DNA of 64,000 nucleotides from Tsukamurella sp. PLM1 (GTDB lineage: Bacteria; Actinomycetota; Actinomycetes; Mycobacteriales; Mycobacteriaceae): positions 930,001-994,000 of the forward strand of contig NZ_AP025688.1 of assembly GCF_023168325.1 (NCBI RefSeq), read 5' to 3'. Under the pieces are notes generated by a model. It saw only the letters and a list, made by a program, of their open reading frames with translations. It was not told the origin of the DNA and ran no database searches. Below, piece after piece: positions 14,209 to 17,616 of the stretch (its first letter is position 1; each line of letters starts with the position of its first letter). Both the position numbers and the translations under genes were made by a program.

Positions 14209-14336
14209 GCGGCTGTCCCTCGTGTCGGCGGCGACGCCGATGTGTACGGCGTGCACATCGACGCTACGGTGCGGTGGATTCCCGCGTCAAGACGCGCGTC
14301 GGTGCCCGCGCCGCTGTACTGAGGCAGGATGGGGAC

Positions 14337-16305
14337 ATGAACCGTCTCGGCGCGTCCACCAGCCCCTACCTGCGCCAGCACGCGGACAACCCGGTGCACT
14401 GGCAGGAGTGGAGCGAGGCCGCGCTGGCGGAGGCGGCCGAGCGCGACGTGCCGATCCTGCTGTCCATCGGCTACGCCGCGTGCCACTGGTGCCATGTCAT
14501 GGCGCACGAGTCCTTCGAGGACGAGGCAATCGCGGCGCAGATGAACGCCGGCTTCGTCTGCATCAAGGTCGACCGCGAGGAGCGCCCCGACCTCGACGCG
14601 ATCTACATGAACGCCACCGTGGCCATGACCGGGCAGGGCGGCTGGCCCATGACCTGCTTCCTCACCTCGTCCGGCGAACCCTTCTACTGCGGAACCTACT
14701 ACCCGCCCGAGCCGCGGGGCGGGCAGGCGAGCTTCCCACAGCTCCTCGAGGCCATCACGGACACCTGGCGCGAGCGCCGCGGGGATGTCACCCGCGTTGC
14801 GGGGCAGGTGGTCGCGCACCTGCGCCAGGCCTCCGCCGGCCTGCCCGACGGTGCCGCCCCCTCCACCGAGGACCTGGCCGGGGCGGTGCGCGCGATCTGC
14901 GCCGACGAGGACCCGTCGGGCGGCTTCGGCCGCGCGCCGAAGTTCCCTCCGTCGGCCACCGTCGAAGCCCTGCTGCGGCACCACGAGCGCACCGGCGACG
15001 CGGCCTCGTACGGCGTGGCCTTCCGGTGCGCGGAGGCGATGGCCCGCGGGGGCGTGTACGACCAGTTGGGCGGCGGCTTCGCCCGCTACGCGGTGGACGC
15101 CGACTGGGTGGTGCCGCACTTCGAGAAGATGTTGTACGACAACGCCCTTCTGCTCCGCTTCTACGCCCACCTGGGCCGGCGCACCGGCTCGCCGCTGGCG
15201 CTGCGAGTGGCCGACGAGACCGCGGACTTCCTGATCCGCGACCTCGGCGTCGCCGGCGGCGGTCTCGCGTCCTCGCTCGATGCGGACACCGTCGTCGATG
15301 GGCACGGCGTCGAGGGCGCCACCTACGTTTGGACACCCGCGCAACTCGTCGACGTGCTCGGCGAGGCCGACGGTGCCTGGGCCGCCGAGGTTTTCGCGGT
15401 GACGGAGCGCGGCACCTTCGAGCACGGCACGTCGACGCTGCAGATGCGGGGCGAGCCCGATCCGGTTCGACTGGCGGACGTGCGGCGAAAACTGTTCGAG
15501 GTGAGGGCCGCCCGGCCGCAGCCCGGCCGCGACGACAAGGTGGTCACCGCCTGGAACGGGCTCGCGATCACCGCGCTCGCGGAGGCGGGCCGGGTAGGTG
15601 CCGCGGAGGACGTCGCCCGGTTCGTGCTCGAGAACCATTGGGACGGTGAGCGGCTGCGCCGGAGTTCGCTGGGTGGTGCCGTCGGCGAGGCCGACGGCAT
15701 GCTCGAGGACTACGCGGCGCTCGTCACGGGCCTGCTGGCGCTCGTGCAGCGATCGGACCGATCCGATTGGGCCGCTTCTGCGGCCGCGATCCTCGACGCC
15801 GCGATCACCCGCTTCGCGGATACCGCGGCGGACGGAAGTTGGTACGACGCACCGTCGGACGGCGAACCGCTCCTGACCCGCCCGCGCGACCCCGCGGACG
15901 GCGCGACCCTGCCGGAGCCAGCCTGATCGCCGAGGCCCTGTCCTACGCTGAGGCGCTGCTCGGTGAGCGATACGCGGCGCTCGCCGCGGCCACCCGGGCG
16001 CGGTCGGGCGAGCTGATCCGGAAGGTCCCCGCGGCGCGGGACACCACCTGGCCGTCGCGGAACAGGCCGCCGCCGGGCTGCAGATCGCCGTCGCCGACGG
16101 TGCCGGCGCTGCGGCCCTGGTGGCCGAAGCGCGGCGGCTCGCGCCGGGCGGCGCCGTCGTCGTGACCGGTGAGAAGGACTCCCACCCGCTGCTCGAGGGG
16201 CGCGGCCCCGTCGACGGGCGGGCCGCGGCGTACGTGTGCCGCGGCACCGTCTGCTCCCTGCCCGTGACCGACGGTGAGACGCTCGCCACAGAGATCGCGC
16301 CATAG
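14337..16305 (+). CDS. DUF255 thioredoxin-domain protein (YyaL-like), frameshifted as given
   Basis: Starts at ATG 14337 with NRLGASTSPYLRQHADNPVHW, then GYAACHWCHVMAHESFEDE (thioredoxin-like CHWC) and GGWPMTCFLT, followed by a six-hairpin glycosidase-like helical barrel. It resembles spermatogenesis-associated SSP411/YyaL and M. tuberculosis Rv1084. Frame breaks near 15907 (CCC for CCCC) and 16033 (GGG for GGGG) split the C-terminal 130 residues. Restoring both gives about 656 residues, and the 1,969-bp length is exactly two short. Function in bacteria is unknown. Confidence 0.85.
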
Positions 16306-16331
16306 GGTGTGCTAACGTCTCTCCCGTGGGT

Positions 16332-16400
16332 ATGAACGCGTATTGGCGCTTTATCGAGGCTCCGGGTGGAGCCGTCGGTGTTGCGCGCATGCGCGGATAA
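16332..16400 (+). CDS. Aromatic leader peptide
   Basis: 22 codons from ATG 16332 to TAA 16400, starting Met-Asn-Ala-Tyr-Trp-Arg-Phe. All three aromatic amino acids occur within four codons, an improbable composition for so short a reading frame. An in-frame GTG at 16326, about eight bases past the putative -10, could be a leaderless start. The predicted role is to stall ribosomes when charged Tyr-, Trp- or Phe-tRNA is scarce and so prevent termination before DAHP synthase. Confidence 0.75.
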   Translation: MNAYWRFIEAPGGAVGVARMRG

Positions 16401-16426
16401 CTAGACCGCACGAACCCGGAGCCGAA

Positions 16427-16451
16427 GGCAGCGAATTCTCGCTGCCTTTTT
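16427..16451 (+). terminator. Rho-independent attenuator terminator
   Basis: Perfect 8-bp arms GGCAGCGA/TCGCTGCC with loop ATTC, followed directly by TTTTT. It is one of the few T-tailed hairpins in the window and lies inside the DAHP synthase 5' leader rather than after a gene. Confidence 0.85.
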
Positions 16452-16501
16452 CTATAGGCACCGGACGTTCCCCACTGGTGCCGCCACCAGGAAGGTTTCT
16501 C

Positions 16502-17559
16502 ATGACCATCGAACTCGATACACCGGCGTCGACATCGAATCGTCGGGTCTCGGCGTTCCACGCGATCCCGTCGCCCGCGGAGCTGCGCGACGAGCTGCCG
16601 CTCGCGCCCCGTCTGGCCGCCCAGGTCGAGGCCGACCGGGCTGCGATCGCCGACGTGATCGCCGGACGCGACCATCGGCTGCTCGTCGTGGTCGGACCGT
16701 GCTCGGTGCACGACCCGGCCGCCGCGATCGACTACGCGCGGCGGCTCAAGCCGATCGCCGATGAGCTCGCCGATCAGTTGCTGATCGTGATGCGCGTGTA
16801 CTTCGAGAAGCCGCGCACCACCGTCGGGTGGAAGGGCCTGATCAACGATCCCGGCATGGACGAGTCGTACGACGTGCCCCGCGGCCTGCGCACCGCCCGT
16901 GAGCTGCTGCTCGACGTCCTGGAGATCGGCCTGCCCGTGGGCTGCGAGTTCCTCGAGCCGACCAGCCCGCAGTACATCGCCGACACGGTGGCCTGGGGCG
17001 CGATCGGCGCCCGCACCACCGAGTCGCAGGTGCACCGCCAGCTCGCGTCCGGGCTCTCGATGCCGATCGGCTTCAAGAACGCCACCGACGGCAACGTCTC
17101 CGTCGCGATCGACGGGGTGCAGGCCGCCGCGTCCCGGCACGTGTTCTTCGGCACCGACGACGAAGGTGCCGCCGCCGTGGTGGAGACCGTCGGCAACGAC
17201 AACTGCCACATCATCCTCCGCGGCGGCCGGGGCGGGCCGAACTTCGACTCCGCGTCCGTCGACACCGCCGTGGCCGCGCTGGAGAAGGCCGGCCTGGCTC
17301 CGTCGGTGATGGTGGACTGCTCGCACGCCAATTCAGGCAAGGACCACGTCCGGCAGGCCGAGGTCGCGCGGGAGATCGCGGCCCGCCTCGCGGCGGGGAG
17401 AAGGGGATCTCCGGCGTGATGCTCGAGTCGTTCCTCGTCGCCGGCGCGCAGCAGCCCGGCCCCGGCCCGCTGGTGTACGGCCAGTCCGTCACCGACAAGT
17501 GCATGGACTTCGGCACCACCGACTCCGTGCTGCACGACCTCGCCGTCGCGCTGCGCTGA
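16502..17559 (+). CDS. Class I 3-deoxy-7-phosphoheptulonate (DAHP) synthase, frameshifted as given
   Basis: First enzyme of the shikimate pathway, condensing PEP and erythrose 4-phosphate. From ATG 16502: VVGPCSVHD (PEP site), RVYFEKPRTTVGWKGLINDP, GARTTESQVHRQLASGL, and LRGG with VDCSHANSGKDH. This is the AroF/G/H class I type, not the class II type that serves as the main enzyme in mycobacteria. One G is missing near 17399 (GGGG for GGGGG); the true end LESFLVAGAQQ to HDLAVALR follows in the other frame. 352 residues when repaired. The upstream attenuator implies repression by aromatic amino acid sufficiency. Confidence 0.92.
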
Positions 17560-17616
17560 GGCGGGTGCCGGAACGGTCGACGCGGTTCAGGATTTCGGGT
17601 TCTGCCGGGGTACACG

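Follow-up and report, generated by a model that had tools for sequence, protein, structure and literature searches.

A leaderless leader with Tyr, Trp and Phe codons upstream of class I DAHP synthase in Tsukamurella and its relatives, and its possible relay to the aroF ribosome-binding site

Introduction

DAHP synthase sets the entry of carbon into aromatic biosynthesis. In Tsukamurella sp. PLM1 the class I enzyme is encoded by a gene, aroF, preceded by a short reading frame with codons for Tyr, Trp and Phe and by hairpin-forming sequence. The locus lies in the 64,000-nucleotide stretch of DNA analysed here (the window, to which all positions refer; all features are on its forward strand). Does this frame sense aromatic amino acids, and by what route would it act on the gene? 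The best overall explanation, to which we assign a probability of roughly 0.58, is a ribosome-sensing leader of aroF whose RNA pairings relay the state of the ribosome to the ribosome-binding site (RBS) of the gene. That the aromatic leader is real and a sensor is very probable. The relay appears well supported as a structure over the family, and weakly so in the last helix of the window; as a mechanism we give it an even chance. If the explanation is true, one leader reads all three end products and links transcription with translation in a compact switch.

The aroF gene and its leader

The product of aroF (16502-17419) matches PF00793 (268.9 bits) and TIGR00034 (443 bits) in profile searches, which bears out the initial annotation of an aromatic amino acid leader before a class I DAHP synthase. 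Its closest named relatives, among the best 80 of 575 confirmed stretches, belong to Tsukamurella and are 88-92% identical; the same genome also encodes a class II DAHP synthase. The Shine-Dalgarno sequence of aroF, AGGAAGG, stands at 16489-16495. The aroF frame is broken near 17405, and the conserved C-terminal part runs on past this point in another frame (17400-17560); the aroF of a relative (L082) is intact at 352 aa. Because the genome is merely 83.9% complete, an assembly indel is likely. The upstream gene (14274-16305), of the thioredoxin-domain type by eye, also appears to be divided between two frames, 14274-15926 and 16120-16305, perhaps through the same kind of indel. A Tsukamurella-like aroF (87%) with its leader also occurs on a contig filed as Acidobacteriaceae BOG_194 (L005), which is probably misbinned.

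The leader ORF, MGMNAYWRFIEAPGGAVGVARMRG, runs from GTG to TAA at 16326-16400, has 24 codons and leaves 101 nt between TAA16400 and the start of aroF. Its candidate -10 box, TAACGT (16313-16318), stands 7 nt upstream of the GTG, and a TG at 16310-16311 would turn it into an extended -10 by sequence. The frame first described, MNAYWRFIEAPGGAVGVARMRG, has 22 codons from ATG16332 with Tyr, Trp and Phe at positions 4, 5 and 7, and reads as reported; ATG16332 was nonetheless rejected as the leader start, since the -10 spacing favours GTG16326, which is more likely the true one. Among the 75 non-redundant leaders described below, 74 have TANNNT 6-8 nt before an in-frame ATG or GTG, the spacing being exactly 7 nt in 57 of the 74. 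As controls, other spacings yield 0-7 of 75 and out-of-frame starts 0/25 and 0/24. Among the 75 representatives examined, a Shine-Dalgarno-like motif precedes just one of the 74 starts. The earlier suspicion that the peptide may itself be leaderless is strengthened by the recurrent -10 spacing.

Leader types and their distribution

Protein searches find class I DAHP synthase in 48 of the 61 genomes of the family, and the leader stands upstream of aroF in all 48. Of 60 upstream regions taken from the order, 18 belong to these 48 family genomes, leaving 42 further ones, and 41 of them carry the leader as judged by eye from their ORFs. The exception (L205) shows, by eye, a GAGCCG..CGGCTC hairpin before aroF and no aromatic leader, the sole such case among the 60 regions; its leader has perhaps been lost. 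Over the order, 246 of 397 genomes have class I DAHP synthase, and a covariance model built from 30 leaders (R1) has matches in 55 of the 397 at an E-value of 0.01. A sense-strand match at or below 5.3e-5 occurs in 45 genomes, in every one of them directly upstream of class I aroF; the weaker matches, among those with both coordinates listed, fall at that site on the opposite strand or elsewhere. The f16 genomes, which have weaker DAHP synthase matches, were left out of the sampled regions.

Altogether 117 leaders were collected and 114 used, with L011, L121 and L099 removed over start-codon doubts; filtering to an 8-mer Jaccard index below 0.30 retained 75 representatives, namely 37 T-type, 30 N-type and 8 others. 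The T-type, YWRF(I/T/M).APGG, comprises the window's own leader together with those of Tsukamurella, Mycobacterium lepraemurium and others, and the N-type reads YFWFS.PA.GG (genus names given to types beyond the named loci are our own reading). Other forms are WYQRFT.APGG, SYRWFRQPA and SFYWFGWPA. Two corynebacterium-like loci, L099 and L144, have a WRFYF leader with the same segments P1 and P3 and the same hairpin T as described below.

Conserved sensor codons

In the window the sensor codons TAT TGG CGC TTT (Tyr Trp Arg Phe) occupy 16341-16352. Conservation of the three aromatic codons together, which the initial annotation had put forward as a check, is found in 72 of the 75 leaders, where the stretch of seven codons closed by the last Phe includes Tyr, Trp and Phe. 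In shuffled leader sequences the three residues are expected within seven residues of a short ORF in 1.5 of 75, so that the leader ORF has the clustered pathway-product codons characteristic of an attenuator. Tallies taken over 117 and 75 leaders reveal a preference in codon choice as well: TTT encodes the last Phe (-8) in 72 of 75, and TAT encodes the Tyr at -17 in 62 of 65. The aroF coding regions of 37 representatives contain TTT in 8 of 316 and TAT in 6 of 189 cases. Both codons are thus rare in aroF, yet nearly fixed at the two leader positions. Wobble codons as a general rule were rejected: of the 23 representatives with a Phe at -14, 19 encode it by TTC, so the retention of rare codons is limited to Tyr -17 and Phe -8.

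Alternative pairings from the leader to the ribosome-binding site

Segment P1, GGCTCCGGGT (16358-16367), begins 8 nt after the initial T of the last Phe codon, a distance kept in all 58 T-type leaders under search patterns that permitted 6-9 nt. It can pair with the adjacent GGAGCC (16368-16373), which together with a lower-stem strand forms P2 (16368-16395), or with P3, ACCCGGAGCC (16414-16423), 46 nt further on. In the minimum free energy structure P2 makes hairpin a with P1 and the sensor codons, and the pairing of P1 with P3 constitutes helix b. The alternative partner of P3 is P4, GGCACCGG (16457-16464), a near-copy of P1 that leaves one A-A mismatch in helix c. P4 in turn can pair with P5, CTGGTGCC (16475-16482), in helix d, and P5 in the window can by eye form helix e with CACCAG at 16485-16490, beside the aroF Shine-Dalgarno sequence. 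The folding check suggested for the leader region gave -65.6 kcal/mol for 16326-16460 (z -4.12), with none of 200 shuffles as good. Searches of Rfam returned no match at gathering score in the window leader, nor at an E-value of 1 in 16280-16520, and a T-box or known riboswitch was rejected on this account.

We assessed the helices by a swap test, in which helix partners are exchanged among representatives within a type and compared with the native pairing; owing to the relatedness of the sequences, permutation counts should not be read as probabilities. Within type, helices b, c and d reach z -4.3, -4.5 and -5.5, with P3 misassigned in several N-type leaders in these three tests, and helix e reaches z -6.7 over all 75 leaders. 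An alternative helix at the RBS, as a translation attenuator would have, is therefore present over the 75 leaders and weak in the window itself, whose own helix e scores weakly, lies at another place and has no overlap with its P4 partner; the partners in d and e overlap in 48 of the 75. Helix b has at least 9 pairs in every leader (mean 11.6), and the majority of its offsets show GC, CG, UA or AU alternatives; its pairs were picked by best duplex, for which the swap test serves as the control. Hairpin a as a whole attains just z -1.8 within type, an effect of its nearly invariant upper stem (z 0), which is uninformative in swaps; the lower stem gives z -6.6 in the T-type and -2.9 in the N-type. 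Null controls of the ORF tail and the leader codons against the downstream region remain at z +0.4 and -0.1. Another intended null, the leader 5' codons against the P3 region, gives z -2.9 within type (T-type -4.5, N-type -0.6), which we read as an extension of hairpin a. The covarying stems that had been proposed as a test in Mycobacteriales alongside the conserved codons are recovered in helices b to e and in hairpin T.

Related leaders outside the order

Across 394 genomes of the class, R1 matches 53 at 0.001. Among 24 loci from outside the order, the leader is followed by class I aroF in 14 and by another DAHP synthase-like gene in 9, and one (L244) is a chance match; a leader was recovered in 13 of the 23 class loci. 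Several class I aroF leaders outside the order, such as RRYRYFAQAPGG, have no Trp in the cluster, and the same applies to several in family f34. The same leader architecture stands before a divergent DAHP synthase-like gene at L231, L232, L233, L235, L236, L241, L242, L246 and L247, the frame displayed for the downstream gene being another one at L233 and L236. Three of these nine genes were checked against profiles: all match PF00793, two (L231 and L232) also match chorismate mutase PF01817, and the third is cut by the end of its stretch. The sister leaders before the DAHP synthase-like gene carry Phe or Phe/Tyr and no Trp in all seven recovered cases. This suggests that the choice of sensor codons goes with the enzyme encoded behind them: Tyr/Trp/Phe before DAHP synthase and Phe/Tyr before a fusion with chorismate mutase. 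Exceptions are the family f34 leaders that precede class I aroF and have no Trp.

Non-actinobacterial class I DAHP synthase genes were planned as a negative control, and 39 of 59 have Tyr, Trp and Phe within seven residues of a short ORF upstream, compared with 2.9 in shuffles. By their sequences, most of the 39 look like real leaders of Burkholderiales (F.YFWFS.PGG). Loci L013-L076, mostly Burkholderiales by title, display F.YFWFS.PGGRE leaders and a CGGCGG-U terminator upstream of class I aroF, and T-runs of at least 6 occur in 32 of 33 Burkholderiales-type loci. In 28 of the 33, a copy of at least 6 nt from the terminator 3' arm stands in the segment that follows the sensor codons, and P1:P3 would be a true antiterminator in the Burkholderiales leaders. 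No published description of these multi-aromatic leaders was found in the literature searched.

The terminator hairpin and ordinary attenuation

Hairpin T (16424-16451) lies directly 3' of P3, the gap being 0-4 nt in every one of the 37 T-type leaders. The perfect hairpin noted before the gene is there, as GGCAGCGA..TCGCTGCC within 16424-16449, with TTTTT at 16447-16451. The arms of T served as the positive control of the swap test and reach z -12.4 over the T-type. A simple terminator scan of the window did not list T, an omission probably due to additional pairing between its 3' T's and the 5' GAA of the stem. An intrinsic terminator between leader and gene is accordingly found in the window, with its T-run of 5, and is less clear across the family. 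Of the 37 T-type leaders, 8 have at least 5 T's and 12 at least 4, whereas 21 have exactly 3 T's and 4 have fewer; among 26 N-type leaders with a recognised arm a single one has at least 4.

Such a hairpin could belong to an ordinary transcription attenuator of the trp or C. glutamicum aroR kind, in which an antiterminator replaces T and the RBS helices are secondary. We regard this as a tentative alternative, less likely than the relay. The strong covarying hairpin with its U5 in the window agrees with it, as do attenuator transcripts reported at C. glutamicum aroF (accessible text of PMC4046766), a weak signal between the lower strand of P2 and the T 3' arm (z -3.05, T-type), and the expectation that P1:P3 would exclude the P3:P4 hairpin in Burkholderiales and N-type leaders. 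The sparse T-runs just given count against it, and so does the search for a competitor: T-type swap tests find no upstream partner for the T 5' arm (z +1.9 to +3.1). Equilibrium folding with the ribosome at different positions, run on all 37 T-type leaders and 26 of the 30 N-type with the 8 others set aside, leaves T in the T-type at a mean probability of 0.95-0.98 throughout the seven ribosome conditions modelled. Neither approach finds an antiterminator excluding T in the T-type, and P1:P3 was rejected as a classical antiterminator of T, its 5' arm having no partner and its probability being unmoved by the ribosome. In the N-type, P3:P4 is itself the hairpin, and its probability decreases from 0.96 with the ribosome at the stop codon to 0.74 at -14 and 0.68 at -17, with a drop exceeding 0.3 in just 7 of 26 leaders. 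Of the earlier proposal that P1 has two alternative pairings competing with the terminator, the pairings themselves (with GGAGCC and with P3) stand, and the competition falls away for T-type leaders, including that of the window.

Predicted opening of the aroF ribosome-binding site

In our model of the RBS the ribosome is masked with its A site at -14, the reference being a ribosome at the stop codon. The predicted cost of opening is lower at -14 by more than 0.2 kcal/mol in 64 of 75 leaders, and in the window it is 2.5 versus 5.1 kcal/mol; the mean decrease is 1.9 in the T-type, 3.8 in the N-type and 2.7 in the others. Opening is strongest with the ribosome front edge 8 to 2 nt ahead of P1, partial with the ribosome further upstream and gone when the ribosome covers P1; in the 8 other leaders the effect is small. 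Placed on the last Phe codon, which is the most constant of the sensors, the modelled ribosome causes little opening. Because the effect depends on the position of the front edge relative to P1, a response to Tyr and Trp is predicted and hardly any to the last Phe, provided that the footprint is not shorter. The corynebacterium-like loci have their first Phe at -14, which would fit, post hoc, the Phe response of C. glutamicum. Chimeras that join the leader half of one species to the downstream half of another within one type keep most of the effect (T-type 1.86 vs 1.31, p 0.04; N-type 3.75 vs 3.46, p 0.33) and cross-type chimeras about half, which in the model supports the architecture rather than each sequence. 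The modelling suggests that a ribosome stalled on Tyr or Trp opens the aroF RBS, the chimera control being only partly convincing.

Should regulation run entirely through the RBS hairpin, T would be constitutive or a spacer. The helix e signal, the leaders with a poor T-run or none and the opening model all speak for translational control alone. Real-time RT-PCR on C. glutamicum aroF, reportedly performed by Neshat 2014, is a point against it. In the available portion of PMC11802643 the same gene is described as transcriptionally regulated, and we consider control by translation alone improbable.

Proposed mechanism

Comparison across the family shows, at the level of sequence, a leader with a leaderless start and rare aromatic codons, together with hairpin T and helices b, c, d and e; from these we infer the order of events, their direction and the aromatic response in this organism. 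Under the relay to the RBS, transcription would start at GTG16326 and the ribosome would initiate right at the 5' end. As long as charged tRNA-Tyr, -Trp and -Phe abound, it would reach the stop codon; behind it P1 would refold with P2 into hairpin a, P3 would be free and T would form. Any read-through RNA would adopt P3:P4 (c) and hairpin e at the aroF RBS, the OFF state. With uncharged aromatic tRNA the ribosome would halt on TAT-TGG-CGC-TTT and break the lower stem of a, whereupon P3 would take P1 (b), P4 would be left for P5 (d) and e would open, giving more DAHP synthase. Pairing does not account for the overcoming of T, since no upstream competitor for its 5' arm was found. Our guess is that helix b, with both the sensor codons and T at one end, docks the stalled ribosome against the polymerase and so overcomes T. 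The most extended form of the proposal joins a five-helix relay (a to e) from a leaderless tri-aromatic leader to an RBS about 140 nt downstream, docking that defeats T, and an old module occurring in several families of the class and, with no Trp codon, before a DAHP synthase-like/chorismate mutase gene; all of this together is doubtful.

A functional small peptide acting in trans, with the RNA incidental, would agree with the conserved YWRF..APGG of T-type leaders and is very improbable: the conserved residues past Phe are those encoded by P1, nucleotides are retained beyond codon synonymy and the C-terminal part varies. GC-rich intergenic DNA easily makes hairpins, but a chance ORF with chance hairpins is contradicted by conservation, swap tests, -10 spacing and the 1.5 of 75 in shuffles, and deserves practically no weight, since by sequence relatives have the leader, helix b and the hairpin before their aroF as well.

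Comparison with known systems

The C. glutamicum aroR leader is reportedly leaderless (Neshat 2014), and the leader of the window likewise is a leaderless aromatic leader before class I aroF. The two systems are alike in the class of gene and in having an aromatic leader peptide, and the corynebacterium-like L099 and L144 share P1, P3 and T. They differ in the peptide, with Phe-Tyr-Phe in C. glutamicum, as given in the accessible parts of PMC4046766 and PMC11802643, versus Tyr-Trp-Arg-Phe here; these parts contain no mention of helices b to e or of an RBS link for aroR. According to the latter source, as far as available, C. glutamicum aroF rises on Phe, not Tyr, limitation. A leader sensing three aromatic amino acids at DAHP synthase, initially considered unusual, is less so in view of the Phe-Tyr-Phe leader of aroR-aroF. 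In the literature searched we found no description of such aroF control outside C. glutamicum.

In the trp and pheA leaders of Escherichia coli the antiterminator takes the 5' arm of the terminator, for which we found no competitor here, and the leader has a Shine-Dalgarno sequence. Each of these leaders senses one amino acid, whereas that of the window carries Tyr, Trp and Phe; the likeness lies in cognate codons in a leader peptide and a downstream terminator (PMC11802643, accessible text). The ilvB leaders of corynebacteria and mycobacteria are similar in combining a leader ORF with a terminator and contain branched-chain codons (excerpts of PMC11857589, PMC13236596 and PMC5784534). That of C. 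diphtheriae is leaderless in the available text of PMC5784534. Terminator and antiterminator overlap in the ilvB leaders (PMC11857589, in part), unlike in the window, and other amino acids are involved. The leaderless cysteine uORFs of mycobacteria (Canestrari 2020, as cited in the accessible part of PMC13236596) resemble the window in that a leaderless short ORF controls downstream genes, and are described there as translation attenuation; they concern cysteine and different genes, in contrast to aromatic codons before aroF.

A 2005 survey of Actinobacteria, in its available text, reports no conserved RNA regulatory structures upstream of phenylalanine/tyrosine operons (PMC1262725), and PMC2965389 has no occurrence of aroF, aroG, DAHP and related terms. 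The accessible parts of PMC4633059, PMC4974804, PMC2659441, PMC7356990 and PMC12125101 hold no Tyr-Trp-Phe leader, P1-P5 relay or chorismate mutase version, nor were these found elsewhere in the literature searched, from which subscription papers were mostly out of reach. Such sensing was already known in one relative; the family looks far wider than this single case, with an RNA switch that appears to extend to the RBS of aroF itself.
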